In this document: positions 4,775-45,293 of the stretch, piece after piece | How positions within the stretch are numbered: position 1 is the first letter of the stretch | Layout: each line of letters opens with the position of its first letter | Assembly: GCA_024663395.1 (NCBI GenBank) | Contig: JANFAH010000001.1 | Coordinates: 2,604,001-2,668,000 of the forward strand | Source: Pisolithus tinctorius | Lineage: Eukaryota > Basidiomycota > Agaricomycetes > Boletales > Pisolithaceae | Direction of reading: 5' to 3' | Length of the DNA: 64,000 nucleotides | The notes under the pieces: generated by a model | What the model was told of the DNA's origin: nothing | The model's input: only the letters and a program-made list of their open reading frames with translations | The model's database searches: none | Made by a program: the position numbers and the translations under genes

Positions 4775-4839
4775 CACATAGTGTAGTCACACTTAGTCAC
4801 AACACATGGGCAGCCTATGCACCAAAACACCAACACTTA

Positions 4840-5641
4840 TATAGACCCCAAGACGGGCCTGCCTAAATAGATCAGCCGGTACACATGGACAGGCCTGAGG
4901 GGCTAAAGTGAGAGCAACATATGTACAGGCCCATAAGTGCATTACCACAACTTATGGGAGGGCCTGTGGTGGATAAGGATGTTGAAACATTTAGATGGGC
5001 CTGTGACCAATTAAGTATACTGAGCTGCTGTAAGACATGGACAGGCCCATCCTAGTAGGTTACACCCCTGGCACAACATCAAAGCAGGCCCACCTATCAT
5101 AACATGGAGAGGGTCACAACATAAGGACAGGCCCATCTATGATTAGAATACAAAGTTGGCAACATATGGATGGGCCCAGGAGTAATATCATTTATGGTGT
5201 TGCAACATGAAGACAGGCCCATCAGTAATGTCATTTCATAATGTCACAACATATGTATGGGCCTGTCAACAGTAAGATGTACCACTGTTGAAACATAAAG
5301 ACAGGCCCATCACTAGTATCATTTAATAGAGTCACAACATAAGGTCAGGCCCATCAGTAGTATTATGCAACATATGGACAGGCCCATCCACAGTAAGATG
5401 TACCTCTGACAAAACATAAAGATGGGCCTGTCAGTAATCTCATGTATAGCATCGCAACATATGGATGGGCCCTTCAGTAGTATTATTTATATCATCACAA
5501 CATATGGGTGGGCCCAGCCCCAGTAAGATGTACCCTGTCAAAACATAAAGATGGGCCTGTCACTAGTATCATTTAATACAGTCACAACATATGGATGGGC
5601 CCTTCAGTAGTATTATTTATATTGTCACAACTTATGGATGG
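4840..5641 (+). repeat. Palindrome-core tandem array, left end part 1
   Basis: About 18 units of roughly 43 bp. Each reads approximately CACAACATATGG-A[CT][GA]GGCC[CT][GA]TC-AGTAATATCATTTATA. The core variants (GACAGGCCCATC, GATGGGCCTGTC, GATGGGCCCATC) all derive from one 12-bp palindrome, GACGGGCCCGTC, by CpG transitions. A partly undecayed core (GACGGGCCTG) survives near 4847. The array lies next to the element end, as transposase-binding subterminal repeats would. Confidence 0.85.
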
Positions 5642-6110
5642 TGTAAGAACATGTGTTCTGACGGCCGAGAACTCTGACTCTGGAAGAGGTAGGTTCCGCT
5701 CGAGTTGGGTTGACCCTGAAGGGGCTTCGGTCTGGATGCAGGGTAAGTACTTTAGACGAACGCAAAGGGAACTCGCCCGAGAAATATAATTCTTGACTCT
5801 AGAGAAGAACCTTGGCAAGAAAGGGGAGCTGAAGTGTGTTCTCTCAAAGGCAAGAGCACAGAGTAAAATGGTGGTAGCTAGTGTAGTGCAGTCCTCCCTG
5901 AGGTACCATAGTTGTCAAGTGACATGACACGCGCCATGACCACCTGCACGCTTAGTCAGCTCTCTATGTTTCGACACCAAGTCCCTTTTCAGCCACAACC
6001 CCTAAGCCCAAATCCTCCTTGACTCTCTCTTACATCCTTCACCCTCAAACCTTCCCTTTGACCCAACCGAAGCATGACTTCTCATAGGGAAAAGGTTCGC
6101 ATTCCCTACA
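5642..6110 (-). mobile_element. Solo LTR-A
   Basis: A 469-bp LTR, reversed, from TGTAAGAACATG to CATTCCCTACA. It matches the LTRs of the full element at 25066-37824. Flanks are ATGG (5638-5641) and ACGG (6111-6114): a 4-bp duplication of ACGG in which one copy has lost its CpG. It is inserted precisely in the palindromic core of a repeat unit. CpG-rich compared with its surroundings, so comparatively recent. Confidence 0.92.
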
Positions 6111-6157
6111 ACGGGCCTGTCAGTAATCTCATGTATAGCATCATGACATATGGATGG
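6111..6157 (+). repeat. Single array unit between two LTRs
   Basis: One repeat unit (ACGGGCCTGTCAGTAATC...ACATATGGATGG) left between the solo LTR-A and the solo LTR-B. It keeps an undecayed ACGGGCC core. Confidence 0.85.
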
Positions 6158-7986
6158 TGTGAGTCAAAGTGTGGAAAGCTGGTGAAAACCAACCAAAACC
6201 AACACAAAAGACAAATGTAGAGTGAGTGGTGGTGTGCCTCCATGGAACCTGGAGTGCAGAAAACCTAAGAGGGGGAAACTTCAATGGCAGGTGCTCCTAG
6301 CACAAGTCATCGACAAGTTATGCAGGAGTAGATGAATGGATGCTGATTGAGAAGGGGATGCTGAACAGAGTGAAGGTGTTCAGCCAAAAGTATTCTGGAA
6401 TAAAATGTGCTCCAAGCACAAGTCGTCAATGAGTTATGCAGGAGTGGCAGAATGACTAAGCAAACAGTTGCTGACTAAGCATGGATGGAGCTTCAGATGA
6501 ATGAAGGTAGACAGACCCTTGATGGAGCCTCAACTACCTAGGATGATGAATGGGGACAGTTAGACTCTTCCAAATGAGCCTCAACTGTTGACAATGAGAT
6601 AGGCACTGAACTGACTTCTGGACTGCTTCTGATTGCTTGGGGTGTAGCTAAGTACATGGGGGTTTATATACTGTGGGGGGAGCACAGCTTGTGACAAACA
6701 AGGCACAAACACTTGGTGAGTAATGAGTAAGGACTGAGTAATCATGATGAGTAAGTGAGAAATGAAAAGTAAGCAAGCAAAGAAGATTGGTGAGTATTGG
6801 CAATGAACAAGTCAAGGATAGTCAAAATATCACAGAATGAGTCAAATGGAGTCAGAAACTGAGTAAGCGCACTGAGATCACATTAGGGGGTGGTGATGCA
6901 AGTCAGATCTTGGCAGAGACATCTCTAGATCCAAAGATGGCATGACAGATGGATGGTGTTTCCAGATAGGGAAGTATTAATTCCAGAATTCAAGGACATG
7001 AGTCAGGCATCAAAGGGGGCTAGGGCATTGGGGGTCTGTGGGGCAATGGGAGCATAAGCAATTGCATCTCCCACCCTTCCATCCTCTCAGTGAAGTTAAC
7101 GAAAGCTTCATGGACAGGGCTCTGAAGGAGGAGGAGAAGAAGGGGGGATGTCTTCTGCTGGATCTTGCAGTAAGAAGACAAGATGCACATCATACTCATC
7201 ATGGATGTGATCAGGGAGGCTGGAGAACAGTAGATTATGCTGCAGCTGTCACAATGCAGGAAGAATCATGGACAAGATTGGAATAAAGATGGTGCAGGGA
7301 GAGGAACAATCCATATGCTTCATCAACTGGGGAGACTGAAATGACCACATAAGACCTTTCTAACCAAGTGACAGACCTGAGGTGACCAAACAACATCCTT
7401 CTGGAAGTCATACTGACAAGGAGAACATACTGACCAAGCTGCATGGGATGAGATGGGGCTGACAATGATGGGATGAACCAGGGGGCTTCAGGACAGAAGC
7501 TGGTGGGAATGCCTGGCAGATATATGTAGCCACTGTCTCTGGCAAATGAGACAAGTGAGACGATTGATGAAGAGGTGGCCATGATTGATGGACTTAGTGA
7601 AATGAGCATCTGATGGATGGAGTGCTGTAGAAATGCATAGGGTGTGAGGATCCTCTCCAAATTTGGAAGGCAGAATCATGTGGCTGAGCACTTTAAGTGA
7701 GTGTGAGAATGGAGTCAATATCTTTGGAAATGGTGGAGATACAACAAAAACCAGAATGCTGTACACAGGCACTAAAAACCTTTAGTGCGTGCTTAACTTG
7801 CTTTCTCTTTTCTCTTTAGCACTGATGACTCATTCTTGTGTGAAGGATGACTGCTCACATCCAGCAGTCTTTCTATGCATGAGGCCTTTAGTCTTCATCT
7901 GCATGGCATGGGCATTGTGTGCAACTTGTTGACAAGTTAGGCAGAGTCAGCTGTAACCATGTCCACAACACCTTTGGTGTGTGACA
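6158..7986 (-). mobile_element. Complete solo LTR-B
   Basis: An 1829-bp LTR, reversed, from TGTGAGTCAAAG to TTGGTGTGTGACA. Flanks are ATGG (6154-6157) and ACAG (7987-7990), both one CpG transition from ACGG, so a decayed 4-bp duplication at the same core position used by the LTR-A next door. The unit contains copies of a palindrome of the form ACAACTCGTCGACGAGTTGT, decayed, near 6300, 6418 and 7922. It shows no coding domain that I recognise, although an open minus-strand reading runs through 7235-7770 and is conserved between LTR-B copies. Confidence 0.9.
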
Positions 7987-9170
7987 ACAGGCCCATCACT
8001 AGTATCATTTAGTAGAGTCACAATATATGGACAGGCCTGTCAGTAATCTCATGTATAGCATCACAACATATGGACAGGCCCTTCAGTAGTATTATTTATA
8101 TTGTCACAACATATGGGCAGGCCCAGCCCCAGTAAGATGTACCCTCTTGAAACATAAAGGTGGGCCTGTCACTAGTATCATTTAATAGAGTCACAACATA
8201 TGGATGGGCCCTTCAGTAGTATTATTTATACTGTCACAGCATATGGATGGGCCCATCCACAGTAAGATGTACCTCTGACAAAACATAAAGACAGGCCCAT
8301 CAGTAATCTCATGTATAGCATCACAACATATGGACAGGCCCTTCAGTAGTATTATTTATATCGTCACAACATATGGGCAGGCCTGGCTCCAGTAAGATGT
8401 ACCCTCTTGAAACATAAAGGCAGGCCCATCACTAATATCATTTAATAGAGTCACAACATATGGACAGGACCTTCAGTAGTATTATTTATATTGTCACAGC
8501 ATATGGATGGGCCCATCACTAGTATCATTCAATAGAGTCACAACATATGGATGGGCCCTTCAGTAGTATTATTTATATCATCACAACATATGGGCAGGCC
8601 TGGCCCCAGTACAATGTACCCTGTCAAAACATAAAGACAGGCCCATCACTAATATCATTTAATAGAGTCACAACATATGGACAGGCCCTTCAGTAGTATT
8701 ATTTATATTGTCACAGCATATGGATGGGCCTGTCCACAGTAAGATGTACCCCTGATGCAACATAAAGACAGGCCTTCTGTAGTATCATGTATATTGTCAC
8801 AACAAATGGATGGGCCCATCTAGCCAGATGCACCCCTGTCACAACATAAGGACAAGTCCATGTATGGTATTCTTAGGCAGCAGAAAGGGAGATCCAAGCT
8901 ATCTACATAAGGACGACCCATGTAAGGCATTCTCAGGCAGCAGAAAGGGAGATCAAAGGGATCTACATAAGGATGGGCCCATCCATGGTATTCTCAGGCA
9001 GCAGATAAGGGAAAACAAAAACTGGTGTTACAACATAAGATGGGCTGATCTGTCCATCACAGGATTACAAACCCTTGGCACCACATAGGGTGGGCCAATC
9101 CGTCATATCATAGATAGCTCACTGCAAATGGACAGGCCTATCCATATTGGGTTATCCCCCTGTCACAATA
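7987..9170 (+). repeat. Palindrome-core tandem array, left end part 2
   Basis: Continuation of the array, about 25 units of roughly 43 bp, highly regular between 7990 and 8800. Two alternating unit types are seen: one ends AGTAATCTCATGTATAGCATC, the other AGTAGTATTATTTATATTGTC. From about 8820 the units degrade and include a short local repeat (GGTATTCTTAGGCAGCAGAAAGGGAGATC, about 65-bp period, 8868-9010; motif GGCAGCAGAAAGGGAGATC). The array is interrupted at 9171 by a Tc1 element and ends near 11265. Confidence 0.85.
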
Positions 9171-9535
9171 TACAGTGACTTCCAAAATTGATTCAATGTT
9201 TGCACATTTTGGGTTGTTTGTTGAATTGATCAGGAACAAAGACAAATAAGACCAAAGTGTAAGTTGATGACATAAACCATTTGCACAGGGCTATCCATCA
9301 AAAAAAAGATTATGTAATTTGAATTAGTATCCATGGCAATATACTTGATTTAAATCACCATGTCATTGAATCAATTTTGGAACTATGTATTGGATCCATC
9401 AGAATCCAACCAATATCACATAAAACAATTTCAAAAATCATCAAAGATGGTTGCAATGGTTATTGTACCTTAGCAATCATTTCAGTCCAAGCTATTTAAC
9501 CACTGTCTATGTTGTCAATGCTTCCTAACTATACT

Positions 9536-11009
9536 ATGCACCCCATCTCCTCTGTGTTACACTCGACCGAAGTCAAGACGTAGGGAGAGCTCAAACGCAG
9601 ACTAAGGTTTCTACCGAGCAACGACTGCGGTAACCTCTGTAAACAACAGAGGATTTAAGGCAACGCCTGGTAAGAGTGGTCCTAGTAAGGGACACTGAGG
9701 GCGAAGTTCTGAGAACGCTGCGTATGATTGAGCAGCTCAAGTCTGGGTTTCCAAGACTTGAGCCGGTAGTCTAAATACTACACAGAGACGGACCATGAGG
9801 CGTCCGCATGTAACGAGGTAACTACGCCTTTGGTTGAACAATGGCGACACATGTCCTAAGCATGTAGCGAGCTAGTAACGCTAGTGGTGGAAATAGAGAG
9901 CCGTCGGATCAGAGAGAAGACGGCTCTAAAAGGAAACTAAGTCCAACGGATCACAAACGAGGCAAATGTACAGTAAGAAGGGAAAGTTTAGGGGCAAAAC
10001 GTAACACTCTGCCCAGAAGGCAAACATCATTTCTCTGGCCTGTAATGGTCATTCTACTCACACTATTGCCTCCAGGCTGGGTATCAGCCAGCCTACAGTC
10101 TCCAGGGTGCTCAAGAACCTTCTTCCTGATCAACAAGCACCTTCTTCTGGATGTCCTGCTAAGCTTTCATCCACCTCTCAGCATGCTATTATTACACAAA
10201 TCACCACAGGCAAGGCCACCAATGCTGTTGAGGTTACAAAGAATATCAATTCCATAATCTCCAATCCAGTCTCCTCACAAACAGTCAGAAGGGTCCTCAG
10301 AAAACATTCATTCAAGGCTGTAACAAAGAAGAAAAAACCACTCCTTTCTATAACTCACAGGAAGAAGCAATTAGCCTTTGCTCTGAAATACAAAGAATGG
10401 ACTGTGGAGGACTGCAGAAGGGTTATCTGGTCAGATGAGACCAAATTCAATAGGATTGGGTCAGATGGGAAGGTTTGGGTGTGGAAACAGGCAGGAGAGG
10501 GGCTTATTGAGAGAGAGATACAGGGAACAGTCAAGCATGGAGGAGGGAACATTATGGTATGGGGATGTATGGGCTGGGAAGGTGTTGGCCACCTTGCAGA
10601 GATTGAGGGGAGGATGGATGCCAACCAATATGTGGACATTTTGGAGAGCCAGTTGCTTCCTAGCTTGGAAGATTCTGGAATTCCTTTGAAGGATGTTATC
10701 TTTCAACAGGACAATGACCCAAAACATACCTCCAAAAAGGCCAAGAAGTGGTTGGAGGACAACAATATCAATGCTCTAGACTGGCCTCCACAGTCTCCAG
10801 ATATGAACCCCATTGAACACCTCTGGGATCACATCAAACAGGAGCTCAACAAGTATTCAACACAGCCAAAGGGAGTTTGGGAGGTTTGGGAGAGAGTGGC
10901 AGTGGTGTGGAATAATATAGACCCAGGGGTGTGTCAGAGTTTAATTGAAAGTATGCCTAGAAGGGTCCAAGCAGTGATAAAAGCCAAGGGAGGTCATACA
11001 AAGTATTAA
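9536..11009 (+). pseudogene. Tc1 transposase, DD34E, split by a solo LTR
   Basis: A cut-and-paste transposase. The start ATG is at 9536. After 19 coding bases a solo LTR with its target duplication intervenes, and coding resumes in frame at 10012 to the stop at 11009. Without the insertion the gene would have 338 codons, the usual Tc1 length. N-terminal helix-turn-helix: HTIASRLGISQPTVSRVLK (about 10050-10120). Catalytic triad: WSDETKFN (about 10425), QQDNDPKH (about 10705), and NPIEHLW (about 10805). Spacing from the second Asp to the Glu is 34, giving DD34E. No other stop or frameshift is seen, so this was an intact copy before the LTR landed. Confidence 0.95.
9555..10006 (+). mobile_element. 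Solo LTR with perfect 5-bp duplication
   Basis: A 452-bp, CpG-rich block from TGTTACACTCGACC to CAAAACGTAACA, flanked by CTCTG on both sides (9550-9554; 10007-10011). The TG...CA ends and duplication identify a solo LTR. It has no other copy in this window. Orientation is not established. Confidence 0.92.
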
Positions 11010-11250
11010 AATTATCAATTTCTATATCTCTGATACACACTTCCAAAATTGATTCAATGACATGGCAATTTAAATTGTATATACCTTTATGGATACTAAT
11101 CCAAATTACATAATTCTTTTTTTGATGGATAGTCCTGTGCAAATGGCTTATGTCATCAACTTACACTTTGGTCTTATTTGTCTTTGTTCTTGATAAATTC
11201 AACAAACAACCCAAAATGTGCAAACATTGGATCAATTTTGGAAGTCACTG

Positions 11251-11681
11251 TAAGATGGGCCCAGGAAGACAAGAAATGAAGAAAGTGGAACCTCTTGCAC
11301 TATGAAGTATCTGAATTTCCCACTATAAATTGTGTTTCATGTTGGATGATTTGCTTATTCAGTTGGAATCTCAGGTGCTGGTCTATGTAGCCACAAGCCA
11401 GGACTCTGCCATTGGAGCAGATGGGATACACACAAAACAAATGGCAATGCTATTCAGAACAATGCATAATATTTTTATCTGAGTCTCTGCTTCATATATG
11501 CATTCAGGTTTATGGACTTGTACCAGTATTGCCATCATGCCATGGGAATCATTCATAGGTGGGATAAAAAATGCAACATCCACATATCTCATTGTCCATC
11601 TTTAACCTCTGACTCTTCCTCTCTCCAATCACCATCACCACTCTCACTGTTGAATTACCCCATCATCTCATCATCAGAAAC
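11251..11681. other. Array remnant and spacer
   Basis: The first 15 bases after the Tc1 element (TAAGATGGGCCCAGG) continue the repeat array. The rest holds no gene that I recognise and leads into the upstream region of the next gene. A pyrimidine-rich run at 11600-11680 precedes its start codon. Confidence 0.5.
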
Positions 11682-13397
11682 ATGTTGTCATCATCATCAT
11701 CTCACAAGCTCTTCAAGAAATCGCCTGAGCTTGATGCTGCAGCCAACCGCATTCTTCAAATTTACTTCAAGGATATCGTGGAAAGCAGCAAGCTGGGAAA
11801 GGCAGACAAGATTGCAAAGTGGAGAGGCACCATCAAGGTGATAAATGATGAACTAGTGTGTCATAGCCTCATCACACTTTTTCACTAACTGATGTATTCA
11901 GGATGCTGTATGCAACCTCATCGCTAGGATGGATGAGATTCTGATGACCCTCATCAGCATTGACATGTTCTTAAAGTGGCATGAAGACCTTGGCTCAATC
12001 AACCACCTGTGGCCTGAGTGGAAGACCACCCTAGCCCCTTCCAAAACTGACATCGCCAACCACAAGTGGCTTGACATTGTCAAGCATCAATATGACTACC
12101 ACTGGTTGGGCCTCCCTATTCCCCATGTGGTGCCAACACCAACACCACCCACTCAAGAGACCGAAATGCCTACAAGTGACAAAGGCAAATGGAAAGTGAC
12201 CAAGGTGGAGGTGGAGCAAATGATAGTGGAGGGCTCGCACAGGATGGAGGTGGATGATGAGGGTGAAGATGAGGTGCCAGAGAAGGAGGACAATGAGGAA
12301 GAACCAGTATGAGGCAGGCAGAAGTGCCAAGCTGCTGCAAAAACAACAACCCATCAATCCTGCTCTATGAAGGCAACAGCAGAAACTGTCAATGAAGATG
12401 ACGTTTCCACTCAAGGCCAATCAAAATGCAAGCCTTGTCCACCATTGGATGGACTATATGGTTGTACTGCCTTAGCTTTCAGAAGGACACCTTCCCCTGA
12501 CCCCCATTCCTGCAAGTTGTGCCACAGACGCAAGGTCCAATGCTACAGGAACCCTGGGAAGTCCTGCTTCCTGTGCAATGGTCACAAGATTTGATGCAGC
12601 CATGCCAATGGCAGCATTACTGCTCCAACTTGATGGAATCCATCACAAGCCAGGGGGAAAAAGCAAGCTCAAAGTCTGTCCCTGACAATGGAGGCCCAAG
12701 AATCCCAAAGCCCAAAGGAACATCCCCAAAAGCAACATGTTTCGATGGCTTCCAAAGCCATTGATGCTGGGGTTGGGCCCTCCAACCAGGGAAAGATGAT
12801 CCCTGAGGGATCTTCACTCAGTACATTTCCAATTTCATGTATTTACCACTGACTCAAATTTTATTCAGAGATTCATATTCCTGCATTCAAATGCAGGGAT
12901 TCCTGCCCAATCCCAGCTGCTGTACAAGCAGATTCAATCATCAAGGTTGGCCCATCCATTGCACAGGAGGTAGAGGAATCTATGGTAGCAGGTACATTTA
13001 ATCACTCCACATCTATGCTAAGTATCATCGTTAACCCTTGTATTCAAAGCAGAAACCTGCCTGTTGACAACAGCAGCACCCACTGCAACTCCCAGCACAT
13101 GGTCACCCATCTGTGCCCCAATCACTGATGTTTCACAAACATCCAACACAATTGAACAGTGAATTGAAGATTTGGAACGTTGACTCCACAATGCTGAGGC
13201 CCACTGCCAATACTATGAGGATCAAATGTATGATTTCCAAATACAACAGGATGAGACCACACAGACACTGGACAGGATGGCATGTGAGCTGGAGGCTCTG
13301 CATATTTGGGTGTATGGATGAGCATTGGGTGATGACCTCATTGTTCTCTTTGGGCCTCTGGCAGATGAGACAAGGGCAGATAGGACAGCAGGGTGAA
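11682..13397 (+). pseudogene. Zn2Cys6-type cysteine-cluster protein A, broken
   Basis: Exon 1 11682-11837, intron 11838-11901 (GTGATA...TTCAG, 64 bp), exon 2 from 11902, in phase. Acidic segment at 12235-12310. The cluster at 12511-12597 has the spacing C-x2-C-x6-C-x7-C-x2-C-x6-C, which fits the fungal Zn2Cys6 DNA-binding consensus. Two further introns are likely at about 12818-12867 and 12993-13051. The C-terminal part (about 13150-13380) is a predicted coiled coil (IEDLERRLHNAEAHCQYYED). The in-frame stops seen (after EEEPV, in the cluster at 12592, and after TAPT) are TGA at Arg positions. Probably a DNA-binding regulator in life; target unknown. Same cluster as at 24865 and 34938. Likely cargo of the giant element. 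Confidence 0.7.
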
Positions 13398-13497
13398 TGA
13401 GGCTGTCTATAATTTTACTCCTCCATGGTATATACAATGTCTTTTTATATTTCGCATTTTAATTGACCACTGCAGCTGCATCATATACTCAACATTT

Positions 13498-13965
13498 ACT
13501 TAGAGTGAGAAAAAGACAATGGCTAGACAGCCAACAGAATTGTGAAGGATAATCTCATTCTACTAAAACAACTGCTGATGTATCCTGATAGGTGGAAGCT
13601 TAGTGAATGCATGGCTTTGCAATATAGCATAGTTAACATGAAACGTAAAAAATGAGATAGCAGGATGGTCTCATTCTGCTAAAACCAGAATTGATGGAGC
13701 CTGATAGACAGAACCCGAATGTGCAGGCTATGCTATTTACAGCATTCACTTGGGATTTACAAAACATGATAATGGCTAATAATAGGATAACAATGCAAAG
13801 AAAGATGTCAGCCTGTGAAAACAGCATTCCATGGATCCTGATAGACACATCTGAGTCTGCTAATACAGCTGCTGATGAATCCCAATAGATGGACACCTGG
13901 TGAATGAGCAGCTATGCTATTTACAGCATTCACTTGGGAGTTACAAAACAAGATAATGGCTAATA
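13498..13965 (+). repeat. Degenerate repeats between cargo genes, part 1
   Basis: Irregular direct repeats of about 100-200 bp marked by GGATCCTGATAGATGGAACC-like boxes and by ATGCTATTTACAGCATTCAC (13726 and 13915). No coding sequence recognised. The series continues beyond the foldback element that interrupts it. Confidence 0.6.
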
Positions 13966-15305
13966 CAGTGGCTCAAAAAAGTGTCCCAATGTTGGGTGAT
14001 TTTGGAAAGAGTTGAGATTTGTGAGAGAGCCAATAGGAATTAGTTCAAACCCCTGCAGGACCAAAAATAGTACTAACTGTTGCCTTGACAACAAGTGCTT
14101 GCTTATGTAATTTGGTTCACATGGAACCAAGATATAACCATTTTAAAATGACATGTCATTGGGACACTTTTTTGAGCATGATGTTGTCAGTCATTATTTA
14201 GTAAATAACTTGAAAATTTGACAACTTCTGAGGGATTTTGTGCATCAACCCCAATTGATTATGTAATGTACATAATCCTGAGCCATAAAAATGGCTTGGG
14301 TCCCACTCAACTAACCCTACTTCACCATGAAATACATTTTTGCCTCTGCTAGCACAAATATCCATCTTCATTTTGAATCTGGCCTTTCTGCTCATCAAAT
14401 CTCCTCTACAACTGGTCAGGGGAGCTCTACTGTGGCCAGGGTCATCAAAGAGTTCCAGCTAGATTAAGGGAAACCTCAAACTAGGACATGCTTACAATGA
14501 CTGGACTAGGGTCATCTGGTCAGTTGAACCCAAGATCAATAGTATGGGGCCAGATGGAAGGAAATATGTGTGGAAAATGGTAGGGAAGTGTTTTCAGGAT
14601 AATTCTCCTGCTTGATTACAGCCTTCAGGGATGCAGAATTGAGGACACTGCAAACAGTTTGGGAAGTGACAGGAGAGGAAAGGGCCACACATTATATGGG
14701 TAGCCTGGACAGCATTTTCAGCTCTTCCAGAGGTCATACTAGAGACCATTCTCCTCTACCAGGAGAGGAAGGCTGGTAAGCATGTCCTAGTTTGAGGTTT
14801 CCCTTAATCTAGCTGGAACTCTTTGATGACCCTGGCCACAGTAGAGCTCCCCTGACCAGTTGTAGAGGAGATTTGATGAGCAGAAAGGCCAGATTCAAAA
14901 TGAAGATGGATATTTGTGCTAGCAGAGGCAAAAATGTATTTCATGGTGAAGTAGGGTTAGTTGAGTGGGACCCAAGCCATTTTTATGGCTCAGGATTATG
15001 TACATTACATAATCAATTGGGGTTGATGCACAAAATCCCTCAGAAGTTGTCAAATTTTCAAGTTATTTACTAAATAATGACTGACAACATCATGCTCAAA
15101 AAAGTGTCCCAATGACATGTCATTTTAAAATGGTTATATCTTGGTTCCATGTGAACCAAATTACATAAGCAAGCACTTGTTGTCAAGGCAACAGTTAGTA
15201 CTATTTTTAGTCCTGCAGGGGTTTGAACTAATTCCTATTGGCTCTCTCACAAATCTCAACTCTTTCCAAAATCACCCAACATTGGGACACTTTTTTGAGC
15301 CACTG
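13966..15305. mobile_element. Tc1-like foldback element
   Basis: A 1340-bp palindrome with ends CAGTGGCTCAAAAAAGTGTC flanked by TA (13964-13965; 15306-15307). The two arms of about 620 bp are near-identical inverted copies centred near 14636. Each arm starts with a 200-bp segment bracketed by converging terminal motifs (inner copy CATTGGGACACTTTTTTGAG near 14157). The arms contain a fragment resembling Tc1 transposase (VIWSVEPKINSMGPDGRKYVW near 14508), so this is probably a deletion-inversion derivative of a Tc1 element. No intact gene. Confidence 0.9.
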
Positions 15306-16050
15306 TAATAGGATAACAATACAAAGGAAGATGTCAGCCTGTGAAAACAGCATTCCACAGATCCCAATAGATGGAACCCTTCCAAATGAGCAGCCTGCAC
15401 AATATGCAAGGTTGATATGGACTGTCTCAACCTGCTAACATGGCATTCAATGGATCCTGATAGATGGAACCCTTCAAAGTGAGCAGACTGTGTGAGATGC
15501 AAGGCTGAGAGCAATTGGTCATCAGATGCAAATGCAAAGCAATATTCTCATTGCACTAACGTAGGATCCAAGGTATGCCCACAGGTGGGACATGTGCAAA
15601 CAAGTGGAGTGTGAGATTCGCAAGGTTCAATTGAGGGAAAAAGTTGCATTCTGCTATTGCAGGAGCCAATGTATCTCAATAGGCAGAAGCTTGGCAAATG
15701 AGTGGATAAATATTTCTCAGCAGATGGAAATACAACCAAGGGCATTCAGCCAGTCACTAGTGCCCAATTCACCCTCTGCAGTGAGCAATAAATATTCTGT
15801 TTCCCAACAATGGTTTGTTGCCATTCATCTCAGCCTGCGGACGCATGAGCCTTTCCAGACAGACAATATATGTACTCATGTCATACCAGACATATCCACA
15901 ATGGAAATAAAACATGTGAAAGGTGAATGAATGGGCTAGCTTGCCACTGGACATCTCCTGTGAAGTACCCACTGACCCACCCATCAGCTACAGGGCAGAA
16001 TGCAAGGGCAGGGGATGGAAACTGCAGGTTCACATTGAGCTAACATTTAA
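15306..16050. repeat. Degenerate repeats part 2 and spacer
   Basis: Up to about 15740 the same GGATCC/GATAGATGGAACCC repeat boxes recur (15360, 15450). From 15740 to 16050 I see no gene. The stretch runs up to the stop codon of the KDZ transposase. Confidence 0.55.
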
Positions 16051-18170
16051 CTACAAATCTTTCTCCAGGACAAACTGAATATCAGTTGCATTCATGGCCT
16101 GCCATTTGTATTCAGCATGCTTGGCCAACCTTGAATACATCATCCTCTGCCTTGCTGCATAACACTGCACCCCAGGAGCTCCAATAGTGCTGCTTCCCAT
16201 CTGTATCTTATGCCATTCTTTTGCTCGAAATCTGAAGAAACTTATAGCCCATTGAAATTCTGATATTACGAGCTCTTCCTCTTCTTCCCAACAATCTTTG
16301 ATGGATTTTGCTCACAGCCAATGAATGCAATAAACTAATTGAAGAAAGTTCATCAACCTTAAAGCACTGTTGAACAGTAAGGTCAACATACATTCAGACA
16401 TCCAACTCTTTGATTCTGTGTCCCATGGGATGTCAATCGACCAAAACCATGGAAGATGGGTTCTGCAGTGCTCCTGTGCATTTTGGGAGAAGGCTGCTGT
16501 CTGCACAGCCAGGTCTTCATTATGAAGCTCTTGATAATGTCCTAAGATATCTGCACCTGCACCAAGTGCAACCATGGCATCTCTGCATCAATTATAAATC
16601 ATGGCCTGTTTTTTTACTGAGACATTGATAGCATGGATCATATCCCAGGCCCAAGTTTTTGTAGAATAGCTCTTAGTCGTGCACACCACCCCCTGAAAGA
16701 CAGCTGCCTTGTCTGCCAATGTAAGACAGAGGCCATGTAGCACATCATTAGCTTGACCTGTGCAAATCTTCAGCTCCATTTCTGCAAGATTTTGAATCCC
16801 TCAAGCTCAACATGCATCAATGCCAAGAGTGGATGGAAGTGGCAATTTGTCCTGCAGTCCTGCCAGGGTTCCATCTGAGGCAGGCAACTCATCCCCCACA
16901 TTGTCCAGCCAACCATCATCTGAAGCATAATCCTGCTCAGAATTTGCATCAAGAAATGCAGTCGGCTGTATGGATTCACTGGCAGAAGTGTTGGAGCCCA
17001 CTTCAAGGTGCAGCTTCAAGTAAATCATGGCATCCATGATAAAACCCAATTGTTCAGATGAAATGCAATCAGCATGGCATGCCATAGCCAATTTTTTCAA
17101 TTCCAATGCCCATTCCCTGACATCCTTTCTGTCCATGTGAAGTGAGGTTATGGCCTCTTCTAAGTGTAAACTGCACACTAGCCAACTAGCTGCTCCATGT
17201 AGGCTTCCGCTGGGTCTGGGTTCCTCCAATAACACTAGTTCAATGGCATGCACTGTTGGTGCTTCTTGTGATATGTAAGTATTTTGCATTTATCCAAAAA
17301 GGCAGACACCATACCTGCCCTTAATTGAACTTCAAAGATGTCCATGGCAGATGGGTCATCAACACAATCTTGCAGTGCACAAATCTCTTGCATTTGCCAG
17401 CTGTCTTGCTGCTCTGCAGTCAAGGCTTCATCTAGCTTTATATATGCCTGCCTCACCAATGGCACTGCTGCTCAAGCCACTTTGAGCTTCTGCAATAGGC
17501 TATCCACTTAGTCTTGGATGTCAGAGAGTGCACTGCAAGTGGATCCTCAGACTAACCAATCCAAATCATCTTCATGAAGTTGGAATCATTCATCTGGAAA
17601 TCCAGCAGTTCTTGGCAATGTGGTGAGGTCATCCCACATGCAGATGTGGATGCCACGTTAAGGACAGACCACAACATTTCAATGATTTCTCCATCTACCC
17701 ATCTGCCCCCCTTGATGAACAGCAGGGCATACCATGCATAACATTCCTTCTTGTGCCCATGCACATGCCATATGCTGATTCCAGGGATAATCTGAAGTGA
17801 CAACAGGATATCAATCAACTCACTTCAACCCACACACTTCCACAGATTCATCATGTAGGAGCAGTTAATGTCATAGAAGCAAACCACTTGTTTGATCCCT
17901 TCCATATTGTATCCCAACACATTTGCCAAAGAGTAGTCCATGTTCAACTGTCTGCAGCACCATCAGTGGGTGTCAAAATTGACGATTCAACCTCATACCT
18001 TTCTCCTTTTTGGAAGTCAACAACACAATGCAGATAAAAGCATCCATGCCATGCACATGCAGTTGCCCCAATTCCAGTCACATGAAGCTTTCCCTGGGCT
18101 GCATTTTGAACTACAGGACCACTCAGAATACACAGATGCAGATGGATTGGAGAGCATTCCTTTCACTGAC
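16051..18170 (-). pseudogene. KDZ-superfamily transposase, broken
   Basis: The minus-strand reading carries the KDZ signature in order: TACAWHGCF and VVDFQKGER (about 18000-18070), a 51-bp intron (17948-17998), MDYSLANVLGY and CFYDINCSY (17860-17945), GISIWHVHGHKKECYAWY (about 17760), the catalytic-region motif VDGEIIEMLW (about 17690), and HCQELLDFQMNDSNF. The long C-terminal region follows: LPLPSTLG (about 16840), GQANDVLHGLCLTLADKAAVFQ (cut into QANDVLHGLCLTLADK, about 16710), LPWFWSIDI (about 16440), and a final stretch ending FVLEKDL at 16054. Several stops and frameshifts are present, so it is inactive. KDZ elements are known as large DNA transposons of fungi that carry cargo genes. The N-terminus beyond 18170 is not clear. 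Confidence 0.85.
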
Positions 18171-18364
18171 CTCCCAACTGAGGAGGGGTCAATGAGCAGA
18201 AATAAAGGCAGAAAGCTGAAATCCACCCTGAAGTGCACACACAAGGCAAGTTCGGTCATGTTGAATCAGTTGTCATGGCTAACAAGTTTGCACTGTGTGT
18301 TAAGTAGGCTCTGTCAGAATCGAGTGAGCCAGACATGAATTGACATTGACCTAGGGCCAAATAC

Positions 18365-19955: not shown

Positions 19956-20069
19956 ATTATGTAGGTGAACTTCCATCTGAACAGCAATCTCTTCAAATGG
20001 AACAATGGGGATTGGCACCTGTTCCATGTTGTGATCAGGGTATGGGCATGAGCTTAATCTGATACACCA

Positions 20070-29274: not shown

Positions 29275-30282
29275 ATGATATTTGCGATGACAGAGGAGGA
29301 CTTCGAGTCCTTGGGTTTACGTTTCGAATCTTATTTGGTGGAGAGTCTGACCACTGAGCTACAGGACGAGGAGGAATGGATAAAGCAAGTGATGAAGTAC
29401 AAACCCATGGCGAAGAAGGTTCGGCCGGTAGCGACAGAGACACCGGCCGAGTTTAGAGTCGAGAGGAGGGAAGTGGGGAACCCGTTGGCTAACCTCCCCC
29501 AGATACCAGTTAAACCCCCAGAGTTCACACCCGGGGAACGACTTACCCAGGAGCGAGCAGACAAGTTCAAATGGGACCCAGGCGGATTTTTGTGGCCCGA
29601 AGAACTCAAACTAGTCAAGTGGCTAGTAAGGATCCACGAGAAGGCTTTCACTTGGGACACGAGCGAAAGGGGGACGTTCAGAGAGGATATGTTTCCGCCT
29701 CTCAAGATTCTGACAGTCCCGCATAAGCCATGGGTGTATTGGAATATACCCATTCCACCAGCGATCTATGGGGACGTTGTGCAAATAATCAAGGAAAAGA
29801 TCGCAGCAGGAGTTTACGAACCGTCAACTTCGTCTTATCGATCGAGATGGTTTTGCGTAGTGAAGAAGGATGGGAAATCGTTGCGACTGGTCCACGACTT
29901 ACAGCCGCTCAATGCGGTTTCGATACAGGATTCAGGAGTTCCTCCGCACGTGGATAGTATCGCAGAAGAGTTCGCAGGACATTCAGTGTATGGCATGTAC
30001 GACCTTATGGTCGGTTACGACCACTGAGTGATCCACGAAGACTATTGAGACCTTACGACCTTTCAAACGCCAATCGGCACATTCAGGTTGACCAAACTCC
30101 CCATGGGCTACACGAACGCTGTACAAGTGTTCCATGGGGATGTGTCGTTTACACTCAGAGAGGAAACACCGGAAGTAACCATGCCATTCATTGACGACAT
30201 ACCAGTAAAAGGACCGCAAACGAGGTACATGAGAGAGGATGGAACGTATGAAACGATCGAAGGGAATTCGGGGATCAGGAGG
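29275..30282 (+). pseudogene. LTR-A reverse transcriptase, N-terminal part
   Basis: Gypsy RT: the conserved lead-in WPEELKLVKWLV (about 29595), PPEFTPG, KIAAGVYEPSTSSYRSRWFCV (about 29795-29860; split motif YEPSTSSYRSRWF), DLQPLNAVSIQDSG (about 29900), LPMGYTNAVQVF (about 30100), and the active site MPFIDDIPVKG (about 30182-30215) with both Asp residues intact. Two TGA stops at about 30025 and 30046, where related sequences have Arg. The frame ends at SGIRR (30282), where a palindromic insert begins. Thumb, connection and RNase H are missing. Confidence 0.9.
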
Positions 30283-32798
30283 CAGCCGTATCAGCTGATT
30301 TTGACCAAATGACCATGGTAATTACCACAAAAGCAGTTACAGAATTCATGGCAACTACCACTTCCCAATATAGACAATGCCCCCTGAGTGACAACCTCTG
30401 TCGGTGTTTGAAAAAAATTCAGATTGGAATGTTCCCACGGTGGGTTACCCTGTCACAAATATTGATAATTTGCACCTGTACTGTGGCTATACAGATGAGC
30501 ATGTGACCAGTAGATGTGATGGTCACATGATGAGTGACATAAGCAGGGATGACCCTAGATCACGTGATTTTTACGTAATTGATTACGTGATGACGATCCT
30601 CCGGAGCGTTCTGTTACGTAATTTATCACGTGATCGTGGGAAAATATGCATGTGACTTAATCAATGTCACATGACAAGGTACAATCATAGATCATCCAAC
30701 CTATTACATAATGATCACATGTCAGTTTCTCCCCAGAACACTTGGTTATGTAATGGGTCACATGATTGTGTGACAATAGACATGTGACCACTCCTGCAGC
30801 ATCACATGACAAGGTACAATTATAGATCATGTGACCTTTTACATAATGATCATATGGCAATAACTCTCCGGACCATTGGCTTATGTAATAGGTCACATGA
30901 CTGTACTCATCATGTGATCTCACCTCTAGCACTCTGCACATGACTCAATCCATATCACATGACCAGCAATCCCACCCCTATTCGCATGCTGGGCATTTGT
31001 GGCTGTGCTAAAAATGCGAATTGTGTCCCCACCCATTCAATTCTTGACATATGGATCTGAATGTTTGTGTGTAGAATAGGCTACCATGTTGCTACACATT
31101 GTCAAAGGCACAGCTGGTCTTGTCCAGTAGTTGCTGAGATATCATGGAAATGAAAATGCTAACAAAACATCACATCATTCATCTTACACATCCTTCATGC
31201 CACATCTGAAACTTCAGAAGGGTTGAAGAAGATTCCTTCAATGCATTTCCAAAGTTTCAAGTTTATCCATTTAGAATTGAGTGAACAGCAAGCCAAATAC
31301 TGATCCCAGAAGCGTGGGAAAGCTTCAAAAAGAGAAAATAAAATAGTGGAGATTTTGAAAACATATCAAAAACATAGCACAGCACATCCCACAGTGCAGC
31401 TACCACTACCAGAACTTAGGTGAGGAATATTGGGACATGGTGGAAGATATTAGTAACAAGTGCCTGATGTGATACTCACTGCAAATGGTCAAAAATGCGA
31501 AATGGTACACTTGACTCATTGAGACAATGGGAGATTTATGCCAGTGCAAGGTCAACACCACTATCCCATTGCACACATTTTCGCAATTTTGACATGTTTA
31601 AGTGGATATCTCACCAGGCACATGGTGCCAACATGGTAGGCCATATTGCTGCATTCCTCACCCAAAGTCTGGGGTTGGCAGGGTCACTGTGATGTGTGCA
31701 AATCCACATTTTTGATATGTTTTCAAAATCTCCATATGTTATTTTGTGACTTTTTCCCATTTTCCCACACTCTTGAATCTTTATTTTGCATCTTGCTCTC
31801 TCAGACCTGAGTGGGGTGACACCAAACTTTGTCTATGAATTGATATGCATGTGACCAACCCTTCTGAAGTGTCAGATATGGTATGAAGGATGTGTAAGAT
31901 GAATGATGTGATGTTTTGTTAGCATTTTCATTTCCATGATATCTCAGCAACTACTGGACAAGACCAGCTGTGCCTTTGACAATGTGTAGCAACATGGTAG
32001 CCTATTCTACACACAAACATTCAGATCCATATGTCAAGAATTGAATGGGTGGGGACACAATTCGCATTTTTAGCACAGCCACAAATGCCCAGCATGCGAA
32101 TAGGGGTGGGATTGCTGGTCATGTGATATGGATTGAGTCATGTGCAGAGTGCTAGAGGTGAGATCACATGATGAGTACAGTCATGTGACCTATTACATAA
32201 GCCAATGGTCCGGAGAGTTATTGCCATATGATCATTATGTAAAAGGTCACATGATCTATAATTGTACCTTGTCATGTGATGCTGCAGGAGTGGTCACATG
32301 TCTATTGTCACACAATCATGTGACCCATTACATAACCAAGTGTTCTGGGGAGAAACTGACATGTGATCATTATGTAATAGGTTGGATGATCTATGATTGT
32401 ACCTTGTCATGTGACATTGATTAAGTCACATGCATATTTTCCCACGATCACGTGATAAATTACGTAACAGAACGCTCCGGAGGATCGTCATCACGTAATC
32501 AATTACGTAAAAATCACGTGATCTAGGGTCATCCCTGCTTATGTCACTCATCATGTGACCATCACATCTACTGGTCACATGCTCATCTGTATAGCCACAG
32601 TACAGGTGCAAATTATCAATATTTGTGACAGGGTAACCCACCGTGGGAACATTCCAATCTGAATTTTTTTCAAACACCGACAGAGGTTGTCACTCAGGGG
32701 GCATTGTCTATATTGGGAAGTGGTAGTTGCCATGAATTCTGTAACTGCTTTTGTGGTAATTACCATGGTCATTTGGTCAAAATCAGCTGATATGGCTG
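30283..32798. mobile_element. 2.5-kb palindromic (foldback) element
   Basis: Near-perfect inverted arms of about 900 bp (30283-31210; 31860-32798) start CAGCC[GA]TATCAGCTGATT. A central 650 bp is also inverted but diverged. The arms are packed with copies of TCACATGA/CACGTGAT and of ATTACATAA/TTACGTAA, in direct and inverted order. No transposase is seen; open readings inside are mirror copies. No target duplication is evident. It occupies the place of the RNase H coding sequence of the host element, so its arrival involved a deletion of about 1 kb. Superfamily not identified. Confidence 0.85.
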
Positions 32799-34210
32799 GC
32801 TACCACTGATATAGAAATCCCTAGGACAGAGAAAGGGAGGCGACAAGACGAACGGTTGGAAGTAGTTCGCAAATTCCTCGAAGATCAACAGCAACCGCCT
32901 GGAATGTCGGACTTGGATCTGAACTCGTTAATCAAATATGCGGCAAGATTCTTCCTGAAGAATGCAGAACTGTGGCACCGGGAACCGAGGGGACAGCATC
33001 AAGTAGTACCCGCGTACGAGAAACGCCTGGAGTTGATGAAGCAAGCACATGACGATTTGGGTCACAAGGGAGTGTTCCCCACTAAGTCGAGATTACTGAT
33101 CCGCTTTTGGTGGCCGTTGCTAGATCGAGATGTACGATGGTTCCTCCGTACCTGCCATGAGTGTCAAATTCGACGTATGGACAAGATCCACATCCCACCT
33201 GTCGTAGCCATGCCAGAGCCTCTGTTTTACAAGGCATACATGGATTCGATGGTGATGCCGAAGTCGAATGGATTCCGGTACATAGTGCAAGCTAGGTGTT
33301 CTCTGACTTCATATCCTGAGTGGCAGATGCTGCGTGCAGAGACAGGACAGACCTTAGGACGGTTCATATTCGAACAGATCTTGTGTCGGTGGGGTGCTGT
33401 AGGAGAGATTGTCACGGACAACGGCTCCGCGTTCAAACAGGCCCTCGCCTACCTTGCAAAGAAGTATGATATCAGGCATATAAAGATTTCAGCATACAAT
33501 TCTCAAGTCAATGGAGTTGTCAAGAGAAGACATCTAACCGTTCGAGAAGCTCTCGTCAAGACTTGCGAGGGCGAAGTGGGCAAATGGTCGTCGTACGCAC
33601 CGTCGGTGTTCTGGGCTGAAAGGGTGACAACACAAAAGTCGACGAAACTTTCGCCATATCAGATGGTCCATGGAATCGAGCCGAGATTGCCGTTTGACTT
33701 CGCCGAAGCGACTTTTCTGATGAATTGGGACAAGGATAAGTATTCGACCGAAGAACTGATATCGTATAGGTGCCGCCAGCTGCAGCGAAGGCAGGAAGAC
33801 TTACGGCGGGTTCGTCAACAAGTATACAAGGCACGGTGCCAGACAGCAAAGGAGTTCGAACAGAGGGTGAAAGGGTCGATATGAAGCTACGAGTTCGAAC
33901 CAGGAGCGCTAGTCCTAGCCCACAATACGAGAATCGAGAAGGAACTCGATCGCAAAACGAAGCCAAGATACCTAGGCCCTATGGTAGTCGTCAGGCGAAC
34001 TGAAGGGGGTTCATACCTATTAGCTGAGCTTGACGGCTCGATTTCCCGACTTTGATACGCCGCTTTTCGCTTACTCCCTTATTACTCTAGGAAACGAATC
34101 TCGATAGCAGTAGAAGAACTCACGAACCGAAGTAAAGAAGAGCTGCGCAGGCTCGAAGAAGAATCGATAGAGGACGGATCGAACCCCGAAGCCGAAGACA
34201 TCTTATGAGA
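32799..34210 (+). pseudogene. LTR-A integrase
   Basis: Resumes at DIEIPRTEKGRRQDER (about 32815). HHCC zinc-binding domain: HDDLGHKGVF ... CHECQIRR (33045-33175). Catalytic core: first Asp in YMDSMVMPKS (about 33240), second in VTDNGSAF (about 33415). The third acidic residue, expected in NGVVERRH, is Lys here (NGVVKRRH, about 33510), consistent with a G-to-A change at a CpG. The C-terminal SH3-like part, [20 protein letters not shown] (about 33905-33965), follows a TGA at 33882. A second TGA lies at 34054. The tail is acidic. Not active as it stands. Confidence 0.9.
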
Positions 34211-37354: not shown

Positions 37355-37824
37355 TGTAGGGAATGTGAACCTTTTCCCTATGAGAAGTCGCACTTCTGTT
37401 GGGTCGAAGGGAAGGTTTGAGGGTGAAGGATGTAAGAGAGAGTCAAGGAGGATTCAGGCTTAGGGGTTGTGGCTGAAAAGGGACTTGGTGTCGAAACATA
37501 GGGAGCTGACTAAGTGCGCGAGTGGTCACGGCGTGTGCCACATCACTTAACAACTACGGTACAGCACGGACAAAATACTGTACTAGTCATCTCGGCCTAC
37601 TCTGTGTCTTGCTTGGAGGAGCAAAATTTTCACTACTTCAGCTCTTTTCTGCCAAGGTTCTTCTTTAGAGTCAAGAATTATATTCTCGGGCAAGTTCCCT
37701 TTGCATTCATCTAAAGTACTTACCCTGCATCCAGACTGAAGCCCCTTCAGGGTCGACCCGACTCGAGTGGAACCTACCTCTTCCGGAGTTGGAGGTCTCG
37801 GCCAACAGAAAACACTATCTTACA
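37355..37824 (+). mobile_element. LTR-A 3' LTR
   Basis: 470 bp, same length as the 5' LTR. By eye about 18 differences, all but one being transitions at CpG. Followed by GCGC, the undecayed target duplication. Confidence 0.93.
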
Positions 37825-41700: not shown

Positions 41701-41710
41701 GGTGGCTATG

Positions 41711-42612: not shown

Positions 42613-43205
42613 GCTATGGCAGTGCTTGCTGCACTTGCAGTGCAGACAGCCCTCGCGCCATGGGCATGTGGGCAGAGTGTACTCGCAGCCGTTGTTCAGG
42701 TCTCAGAGAGTGATCCATTGTCCACTGTCAGGATAATCATTTGTTACTGCACTCATAAGGCAAATGAACGGATGTCCGAGGAGCATGTCAAAGTTGGCAT
42801 CCTCAATTACTTGAACCTGTAGCATGACTGGCCTGGCTCCAAAGTCAAGTTTCAGGTTCTCTAGAACACCTACAGTAGTGTCTTTAGACATATTAGCAGA
42901 TGTCATAGCCATGAGATGATCACAGTGCAATGGAAGCCTGATCTTTTCCCAAACATGCCTGGGCATGGTGACGATTTCTGAACTGGAATCTAGTATGCAG
43001 TTGATTGTGATGTCGGTCCCAGGGACCTTGGCTTTGATGCAGTGGAGCAGCAGAGTGTGGTGAGCTACGATGGAGCTGTCGTCACCATGGATAACATGGT
43101 CTCTGTATTCACGCATGGTTCTTTGAGGATCGCAGCTGGTCAGCTCATATGACAGAGAGGCAGTGCTGATGTGATGCCAATATAGTACATCCAAAAGCAG
43201 ACAGG
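42613..43205 (-). pseudogene. Gypsy protease fragment
   Basis: Minus-strand protease of the same element as 39560-41700. Reads VPGTDITINCILDSSSEIVTMP (shown in part: CILDSSSEIV, about 42975-43005), then ANFDMLLGHPFICL (about 42760). The active site is normally DSG. Here the Gly codon reads AGT (Ser), one G-to-A change at a CpG. Gag is missing, cut at about 43205 by an LTR-B fragment. Confidence 0.82.
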
Positions 43206-44176
43206 GTGAGTCAGATGTCAACAGGGGTCAAGCTTTGGGGGTCTGTGGGGTGACAGGAGCATAGGGGATTGCAACTTTCCCCCCCAAACCATCCTCTCAG
43301 TGAAGCAAATAGGTACTTCATGAATGAGGCTCTGTTGGAAGAGAGGATGAAGGGGGAGTGTCTTCTGCTGTATCTTGCAACAAGGAGGCAAGATGTGCAT
43401 CATACTCATCATGGATGCGATCAGGGAGAGTGGAGAACAGTAGATTATACTGTAGCTGTTGCAATTTTGGGAGAATGATGGATGAGACTGGTATGAAGAC
43501 ATTGCAGGGAGCAGGGAGGAAGGATCCATATGCTTCTTGGACTGGAGAGACTGAAATGACCACATAAGACCTTTCCAAATGAATGACAGACCTGAGGCTA
43601 CCAAAGAATGTCCTCCTAGAAGTCTTACTGACAAAAAGAACATGCTGTCCAAGCTGGATGGGCTGGGAGGGGGCAGATGAGGATGGGATGTACCAGGACA
43701 CTTCAGGATGGAAGCTGGTAGGAACTCCTAGTAGATATACATAGCCATGGTCCCTAGCAAAGGGGACAAGCAAAATGATTGATGTGGAGGTGGCCATATC
43801 AGAAGAATTAGCAAAATGAGTGTCTTTTGGAGGGAGTGCTGTAGAAACATGTGGAGTGTGCAGATCCTCTCCAATTTTGGAAGGTAGGATCACATGGCTG
43901 AGCACTACAAGTGAGTGTGGGAATGGTTTCAGTATCTGCAGAAATGGTGGAGATATGTTGAAAACTGGAATGCCATACATGGGCACTTAAGAATTTTAAC
44001 CAGCACTTAACTCGCTTTCTCCTTTTCTCTTCTTTGGCATTGATGACTCATTCTTGTGCAAGGGATGACTGCTGGCATTTCTGGCTGTCCTTCCTCACAT
44101 GAGGGCTATGGTCTTCATCTCCATTTATCAGCTATATCCATGTCCACCTCACCAAACACCTTTGGTGTGTGACAGT
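43206..44176 (-). repeat. LTR-B fragment, reversed
   Basis: Matches the inner half of LTR-B (compare 7010-7986) from GGGGGTCTGTGGGG to TTGGTGTGTGACA. About half of the LTR, its 3' side, is missing at the left. CpG-poor and more diverged than the other copies, so an older insertion. Confidence 0.82.
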
Positions 44177-44400
44177 GCAAGGTCTGCTGAATACCTCCTC
44201 TTGAAATCTGGCTTTCATGTATGATGCAATGCAGTCTGTTAGTTCCATTCACCATCTGTGGGGGATTTTAGACATGTCTTGCATAGTATTCATGCTTGGG
44301 GTGGATGAGGTCAGAGTTGTATAGTGGGCAAGCTGCTTGCAGCTTGTTGGAAAATTATGGCATGTCAGGACACTTGCCTCAATATTTTACTGTGATCCAA
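44177..44400. other. Spacer of the giant element
   Basis: No gene seen. Unique sequence between the LTR-B fragment and the right-hand repeat array. Confidence 0.5.
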
Positions 44401-45293
44401 TCAATATGTTGTGATGCTATACATGCTATTGGTGTTGGGCCTGCCTTATGTTGCAACAGGAGTGGATCTTACTAGACAGACCCATCCTTGTTTTATGGCA
44501 ATATAAAAGATATTACTGAAGGGCTGTCCATATGTTATGACCATATAAATAATACTGCTGAAGGGCCCATGCTTATGTTGTGACCAATGGGCCTGTCTTT
44601 ATGTTGTGACAGGCATACATGTTGCTATTGACAAGCCCATCCATGTGTTGTGACCATGTAATTGATATTACTGATGGGCCCATCTTTATGTTGCAACAGG
44701 CATATGTGTTGCTATTGACAGGCCCATCCATGTGTTGTGACCATGTAATTGATGTTACTGATGGGCCTGTCTATGTGTTGTGACGCTGTCAATGATATTA
44801 CTGATGGGCCCATCCTTATGTTGTGACAGGTGTACATCTTGCTATGGATGGGCCCATCTATATGTTGTGACAGGGGTATATTATCCCAAAGACAGGCCCT
44901 TCCATATGTTGCCAACTCTGTAATCTATCATAGAGGGGCCCCTCTTTATGTTGTGACCCTATAAAGCATATGATGGGCGGGCCTGTCCATATGCTGCGAC
45001 CTTCTTCATGATACAATAGGCGGGCCTGTCCATGTCTTACAGTAGCTCAGCATACTTACTTGGTCATGGGCCCATCTATATATTGCAGCATCCTTACCCT
45101 CCACAGGCCCTCCCATATGTTGTGGAATTGCACTTACAGGCCCATACATATGTTGCTCTCACTATAGGCCCTCAGGCCTGTCCATGTGTCATGGCTAATC
45201 TATTTAGACAGGCCCATCATGGGGTCTATATAAGTGTTGGCATTTTGGCATGCAGGCTACCTATATGTTGTGACTAAATGGACTACATGGGGT
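44401..45293 (-). repeat. Palindrome-core array, right end (inverted)
   Basis: About 17 units of the same GGGCC-core repeat, in reverse orientation to the left array, ending in a terminal segment that matches 4775-5090 reversed (landmarks: GGGGTCTATATAAGTGTTGG; TTGCTCTCACTATAGGCC). This is the right inverted end of the giant element. A repeated TATGTTGCAACAGGCATA-type unit lies at 44590-44720. Confidence 0.88.

Follow-up and report, generated by a model that had tools for sequence, protein, structure and literature searches.

Inverted palindrome arrays at the ends of a TET-carrying KDZ transposon of Pisolithus tinctorius may address its transposase and TET enzyme

Introduction

The ectomycorrhizal Boletales fungus Pisolithus tinctorius carries, on contig JANFAH010000001.1, two inverted arrays of short repeats that face each other across 40 kb. 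What kind of element ends in such arrays, and what might they do for it? The locus spans positions 4775-45294 of a 64,000-nucleotide stretch of DNA, hereafter the window, and belongs to a KDZ DNA transposon family of high copy number, of which it is one decayed member. Less decayed copies, of about 18.5 kb, encode a Zn2Cys6-type protein, a CxC2-KDZ transposase and a TET/JBP dioxygenase between inverted terminal arrays. The explanation that we regard as the best for the whole, with a probability of about 0.5, is that the window contains a dead copy of a TET-carrying, most likely Kyakuja-type, KDZ cut-and-paste transposon whose arrays would address both the transposase and the TET enzyme. What looks new is that the ends are made of palindrome arrays, inverted between the two ends. 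A KDZ transposon with inverted tandem-array ends had been proposed here in an earlier, sequence-only reading of the window, several claims of which are taken up below.

Results

Borders and target duplication of the window copy

From left tip to right tip, the window copy measures 40,520 bp. Its left end (4790-5048) and right end (45022-45280) are inverted with respect to each other and 85% complementary, and both consist of tandem repeats, as the sequence-only reading had stated. That reading also placed the ends in two halves of one repeat. Indeed, the joined outer flanks align straight across the junction to 48773-49061 (91.4%, 292 columns), a segment that, judged by its sequence, is a paralogous empty site within the window and provides the empty-site comparison that had been called for. 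The target duplication, ATTCTTG, is perfect over 7 bp (4768-4774 and 45295-45301, 7/7). The 8 bp claimed earlier had to be revised, as the eighth flank base is mismatched (T vs C), and the right border was moved from 45293 to 45294. Nor is 40 kb the native size, because most of the 40.5-kb span consists of other repeats that were inserted later and are nested inside.

The transposase relic noted in that reading was found at 17555-17962 on the minus strand, where a KDZ match of 86.8% identity contains one stop. The window copy is short of about 4.3 kb and 1.2 kb of element sequence, CxC2 and TET parts included: the CxC2 part of the transposase was not found in it, and it lacks the TET-bearing stretch, which in copy C53 is at about 15.8-17.0 kb. 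Zn2Cys6-type genes had been announced without a location. Of the three cysteine patterns of this type in the window, the one at 12511 belongs to the element itself, while those at 24865 (plus strand) and 34938 (minus strand) lie in nested sequence, outside the Kyakuja-like element.

A genome-wide family with sharp borders

A DNA search with 4775-5090 returned 271 candidates, the best 40 of which all showed at least 91% identity, and the right end behaved likewise (270 candidates). The tips are sharp borders of the family, since flanks differ among copies as far as CACATAGTGTAGTC (left) and GACCCCATGTAGTCC (right, reverse complement); copy C29 was used without its left tip. With up to 3 mismatches, the genome contains 131 left and 115 right tips and none of the reversed control patterns. 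Among the tips listed (100 of the 131 left and 100 of the 115 right), 59 of the 100 left tips have a right tip no more than 120 kb away in the orientation of an element, compared with 9 in outward and 16 in same-strand arrangement. Below 20 kb these figures become 27, 0 and 1. Near-intact copies are mostly 18.3-19.0 kb long, and 12 of the 59 pairs measure 17.8-19.0 kb, within the range of 10-20 kb at which inverted pairs had been predicted.

The flank duplications expected at other copies are present too. They were assessed in 52 of the 59 pairs, the other 7 lacking one flank: 39 match at 7/7 and 47 at 6/7 or better, whereas cross-pairing of flanks gave 0/2,652 and 6/2,652, respectively. The five pairs that fail are C46:328702 (1/7), C7:2295288 (0/7), C5:2736160 (1/7), C1:1827613 (3/7) and C37:430525 (5/7). 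Read as 8 bp, the duplication matches at no more than 5/8 in any of the 52 pairs, and its length led us to set Zisupton and Dileera aside. Duplications are perfect both for a 102.7-kb pair on C6 and for a 1,211-bp copy on C2 that is almost nothing but tips and arrays. Ten subfamily A pairs are shorter than 10 kb and contain no transposase, i.e., no scored match of the clade; nine of them have duplications at 6/7 or 7/7. These short pairs look non-autonomous, and further short copies are located at C1:432368-438270 and C16:1186587-1192186.

Tips were then compared with transposase genes (97 of 114 rows, the other 17 being extra pieces of genes already counted). Clade A, defined by at least 67% identity over a 412-residue exon, comprises 52 genes. 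Both tips lie on the expected sides within 45 kb for 31 of them, only the left tip for 7 and only the right tip for 5, and 9 have none; 43/52 thus have at least one expected-side tip, and for 2 a tip lies on the wrong side. For the 30 genes of subfamily B (46-55% identity) the numbers are 20 with at least one tip, 10 with none and 1 with a wrong-side tip, and 14 of 15 more distant genes are without any tip. The association in clade A does not bear out the objection, raised in advance by the sequence-only reading against itself, that intact KDZ elements of this clade might have unrelated ends. Its other worry, that the ends might occur mostly singly and without KDZ genes, did not materialize with respect to pairing, although short transposase-free copies do exist.

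Genes of better preserved copies

Copy C2 matches the Pfam families CxC2 (PF18803, 2e-26), KDZ (PF18758, 6.2e-27) and Tet_JBP (6e-20). The closest solved relative of the TET/JBP protein is CcTET (9.4e-25), and H326, D328, G331 and D337 are aligned to identical residues. That this is a TET-carrying KDZ element is nearly certain. The TET/JBP gene, missing in the window copy and present in others, had escaped the sequence-only reading, which therefore also missed the published TET-carrying Kyakuja elements.

The cysteine pattern CX2CX6CX7CX2CX6C is found in 7/7 subfamily A copies (one with an internal stop) and in the copies of subfamilies B and C described below; its mean number in 10 random sequences of window length was 0. 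A cluster fold is tentatively predicted for the Zn2Cys6-type protein, which has a coiled-coil-like stretch downstream. Foldseek by itself gave a best E value of 4.5. PDB sequence searches with the cluster returned 1 and 5 matches at E values of 1 or less, all of them Zn2Cys6 proteins and none significant.

The genome is rich in KDZ and TET/JBP genes; the best 160 of 463 KDZ candidates and the best 150 of 186 Tet_JBP candidates were scored. For the comparison with tips, 84 of the 150 scored Tet_JBP matches were chosen by frame length and position, and the resulting 43/84 is not an unbiased rate.

Terminal arrays

Units of 42-44 bp, each centered on the palindrome GACGGGCCCGTC, run inward from the tips and are inverted between the two ends. 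This core contains CGG-N2-CCG, with two CpGs per word. We counted cores at 39 ends (9 left, 30 right) from the best-scored matches, a set that includes duplicated loci and both, overlapping, ends of the 1,211-bp copy. All 39 have 9-36 cores in the first 1.5 kb inside the tip and 0-2 in up to 1.4 kb outside it. The spacing is regular: 804 of 1,066 core spacings deviate by no more than 3 bp from a multiple of 42.8 bp, where about 16% would be expected. In four copies, 27-54 cores were counted per end and 4-11 in the body, where about 14 kb would be expected to hold 5.1-6.1. There are 69 places in the genome with the exact double core; among the 50 listed, 45 fall within listed pairs, and the other 5 are no more than 6.5 kb from a transposase gene of the family. 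In three copies, the left end aligns with the inverted right end over 536-590 columns at 77-81%. Information per position amounts to 1.25-1.28 bits in the core and 0.46-0.51 bits in the spacer, a gap that is partly built in because the cores were the search criterion; the spacing was not. Such patterns in the sequence argue that the arrays are very probably protein-binding arrays under selection.

Related subfamilies

In the subfamily B copy on C9 (transposase exon 55% identical), 44 cores were counted at the left end and 34 at the right end (1.5 and 1.6 expected), with 34/43 and 28/33 spacings in phase at the same spacing as in subfamily A. The spacers of this copy are unrelated to those of A, whereas the core and its spacing are retained. 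With Tandem Repeats Finder, its left end gave 3 rows, and no tandem repeat was reported at its right end.

The subfamily C copy, on C27, is 17,522 bp long and has a duplication AATCACG, tips CACATAATGTACC and GAGCCCATGCACC, and open reading frames for a Zn2Cys6-pattern, a CxC2-KDZ-like and a TET-like protein. Its end repeats contain a different CpG word, with 34 CCGG in 1.45 kb at one end (5.9 expected) and 34 in 1.32 kb at the other (6.5 expected). The periodicity is 223 bp at one end, and periods are shorter at the other. From 27 left and 22 right borders chosen for this subfamily, 22 pairs were made by their coordinates, 6 of them at 17,497-17,522 bp.

CpG decay

The window arrays have 57 cores (21 more occur elsewhere in the window), and 3/114 array core CpGs are intact. 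The window copy is dead. Relative to copy C53, 46.4% of 933 CpG bases differ by transition, which would amount to about 93% of CpG sites given one changed base in each, compared with 2.9% transitions and 1.0% transversions at non-CpG sites. Relative to copy C1a, the values are 46.7% of 670 CpG bases, 1.6% and 0.7%. Both comparisons are confined to those stretches of the body that could be aligned (6.1-10.2 kb for the window copy). Among the stop codons of clade A transposase exons, 94 of 106 (a count that includes duplicated loci and one further gene piece) are TGA, as the change from CGA to TGA would give. The CpG-biased decay is graded between copies, with body CpG ratios from 0.10 to 0.85, and in better kept copies the ratio of the right array is at or above that of the body. 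We do not present CpG-biased mutation in mushrooms as new, as it is already stated in the abstracts of PMC6980582 and PMC4014442; PMC12730594 cites work that detected no hypermutation in Agaricomycotina.

Discussion

A 2025 survey reports TET-carrying Kyakuja with 7-bp duplications from five orders of Agaricomycotina, Boletales among them (Kojima 2025, PMC12730594). The Pisolithus element resembles them in its KDZ transposase, its CcTET-like (AG-type) TET/JBP gene, its 7-bp duplications, its 5'-CA start and its Agaricomycete host. Two Laccaria Kyakuja families are described in the survey with CA..TG termini and no terminal inverted repeats, which is a description and not a group definition. 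In contrast, the Pisolithus element has a 3' tip ending in TC, and its ends are inverted and both made of core arrays. Kyakuja, rather than another KDZ group, is in all likelihood the right assignment, and we give the name as most likely only, because the TC end and the inverted ends depart from that description. The accessible text of the survey mentions no subterminal repeats, zinc proteins or Pisolithus, nor tandem or palindromic arrays in Kyakuja, and our literature search on Pisolithus and TET turned up nothing relevant.

In the explanation that we favor, each GACGGGCCCGTC core would be bound by a dimer encoded by the element, the best candidate reader being the Zn2Cys6 protein and the alternative being the transposase through its CxC2 part. 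As 42-44 bp correspond to about four helical turns, the dimers, dozens of them, would all face the same side of the DNA. Arrays loaded in this manner would label the ends as the element's own, to be recognized by the transposase, and would recruit the TET enzyme to the methylated CpGs there, amounting to a sequence-addressed counter-silencing; copies with mutated core CpGs would lose sites and die. The sequences make it probable that the array binder is encoded by the element. The Zn2Cys6 protein fits as the reader because the core contains CGG-N2-CCG, a dimer suits a palindrome and the gene is present in all three subfamilies examined; we put the chances that it is the binder at about even. 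The boldest step, proposed by analogy, is that TET is addressed through the arrays, and here the odds are somewhat against us. We are equally tentative about the element having a complete kit, namely, an array word with two CpGs, its own Zn2Cys6 dimer that would read the word and its own TET that would remove the methylation, with reader and word changing together between subfamilies. If they did, with GACGGGCCCGTC at 42-44 bp in A and B and a CCGG-type word at other spacings in C, each subfamily would unsilence and mobilize only itself.

The candidate reader resembles Gal4-class regulators (Gal4, PPR1, HAP1, LAC9, Leu3 and Put3) in its CX2CX6CX7CX2CX6C pattern, coiled-coil-like stretch further on and CGG-containing palindromic site, and perhaps in its tentatively predicted cluster fold. 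Unlike those host regulators, it is encoded inside a transposon. We know of no studied Zn2Cys6 factor to which the CGG-N2-CCG spacing can be assigned. Galileo and Foldback-like elements, with which we also compared the family, have a P-element-type transposase and animal hosts and, to our knowledge, neither a TET gene nor a CpG palindrome word.

In Arabidopsis, VANDAL elements encode VANC proteins that bind the elements' own arrays of tandem motifs, which leads to loss of methylation (PMC5735166), and motif and VANC protein change together (PMC5735166 and PMC10398659). Common to both systems are short-motif tandem arrays, mostly in the non-coding DNA of the element, different motifs in related elements and a proposed or known link to the removal of DNA methylation. 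VANDAL elements are of MuDR type and have VANC proteins and no TET, whereas the Pisolithus element has a KDZ transposase, a Zn2Cys6-type protein, its own TET and arrays at its extreme ends. If the proposed addressing is true, it would be a separate fungal invention of what VANDAL elements do in plants, a parallel with an added enzyme. The survey of mushroom transposon TETs speculates that they act without target specificity (PMC12730594). The arrays offer a concrete alternative, which rests on dozens of like CpG sites at fixed helical spacing per end and on a gene for a Gal4-class-type protein in the same element.

Several observations weigh against this explanation. In the three most CpG-depleted copies (C12, C4 and that of the window) the arrays are at or below the CpG ratio of the body, so that the sequence gives no sign of TET protecting them. 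The Zn_clus match of the putative reader scores 18.4 bits, under the Pfam cutoff of 21, and Pfam on the homologue alignment found Zn_clus in 1/13 homologues (E value, 0.0022). The first cluster loop differs between subfamilies A and B although the core is identical, which does not favor this loop as the core reader. CCGG is enriched in the body of the subfamily C copy as well (108 in 11 kb vs 35 expected), making the contrast between array and body weaker in C than in A and B. Finally, subfamilies B and C are represented by one copy each.

The arrays could instead be subterminal repeats that bind only the transposase, in which case CxC2-KDZ would read the core, the many sites would serve to unite ends at least 18 kb apart and TET would act genome-wide without an address. 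The perfect duplication of the 1,211-bp copy suits this account, as do the nine duplications among the ten short pairs, and so does the report that oxidized methylcytosine in Coprinopsis and Laccaria covers retrotransposons too, which was read as untargeted action (PMC12730594). However, a deletion derivative found as a single copy is no proof that it moved after the deletion, and the Zn2Cys6 gene, which is present in all three subfamilies examined, would be left without a role; we consider this account less likely than the favored one. Still less probable is that the cores are recognized by a DNA-binding protein of the host, either a silencer or an activator, the sites having been acquired by the element or being a burden on it. 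Host Zn2Cys6 factors do bind CGG repeats, but all 50 listed exact double cores are in these elements, and subfamily C has a different motif, as expected if reader and site change together.

One might also regard the arrays as a neutral satellite, expanded within the ends by slippage or unequal crossing-over and hitchhiking with the element. Tandem arrays expand easily, the number of units varies between copies (27-54 cores per end) and the left end of the B copy does show tandem repeats. Yet in the same copy core and spacing are as in A although the spacers are not, and its right end, for which no tandem repeat is reported, has 34 cores vs 1.6 expected, largely in phase. We set the neutral satellite aside on this subfamily B evidence, as very improbable.

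Layout of the window copy and minor observations

The features of the window copy are on the plus strand unless stated otherwise. After the left target duplication (4768-4774), the left tip, CACATAGTGTAGTC..., and the beginning of the left array, with its GACGGGCCCGTC-type cores, occupy 4775-5640. The array is interrupted at 5641-7986 by one or more later insertions of other dispersed repeats, to which no strand is assigned, and resumes at 7987-9172. A nested Tc1/mariner-like element follows (9171-11252; inverted repeats 9171-9390 and 11033-11252, DDE_3 open reading frame 10005-11009). The element segment at 11251-13965 carries the relic of the Zn2Cys6 gene, with the cluster at 12499-12759 and the coiled-coil-like stretch at 13109-13318, both with stops. 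Inserted in the element at 13960-15311 is a nested foldback repeat without assigned strand, with perfect 536-nucleotide arms and a 280-nucleotide loop. The segment with the transposase relic, at 15306-18106 on the minus strand, contains the KDZ core (17555-17962) and a downstream exon (16054-17286, 87% identity, 4 TGA). An internal deletion of about 4.3 kb at 18106/18107 separates it from a segment matching about 12.5-15.8 kb of copy C53 (18107-21386). Nested sequence without assigned strand, which includes RNase H and integrase genes of retroelements as well as other repeats, extends over 21387-44176. The right array, inverted, and the right tip (reverse complement GACCCCATGTAGTCC...) form 44177-45294 on the minus strand, followed by the right target duplication (45295-45301) and, further on, the paralogous empty site (48773-49061).

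Four right ends of the family (C120, C43, C13 and C2:6520311) have an identical outside flank, as if one insertion lay in a larger duplicated segment; those on C2 and C43 are about 27 kb from contig ends. Within the window, a 946-nucleotide inverted repeat at 30280-32801 (99% complementary, arms 630 nucleotides apart) adjoins the integrase-bearing retroelement sequence, and near-perfect (95-100%), overlapping inverted and direct repeats are clustered at 50257-53168.

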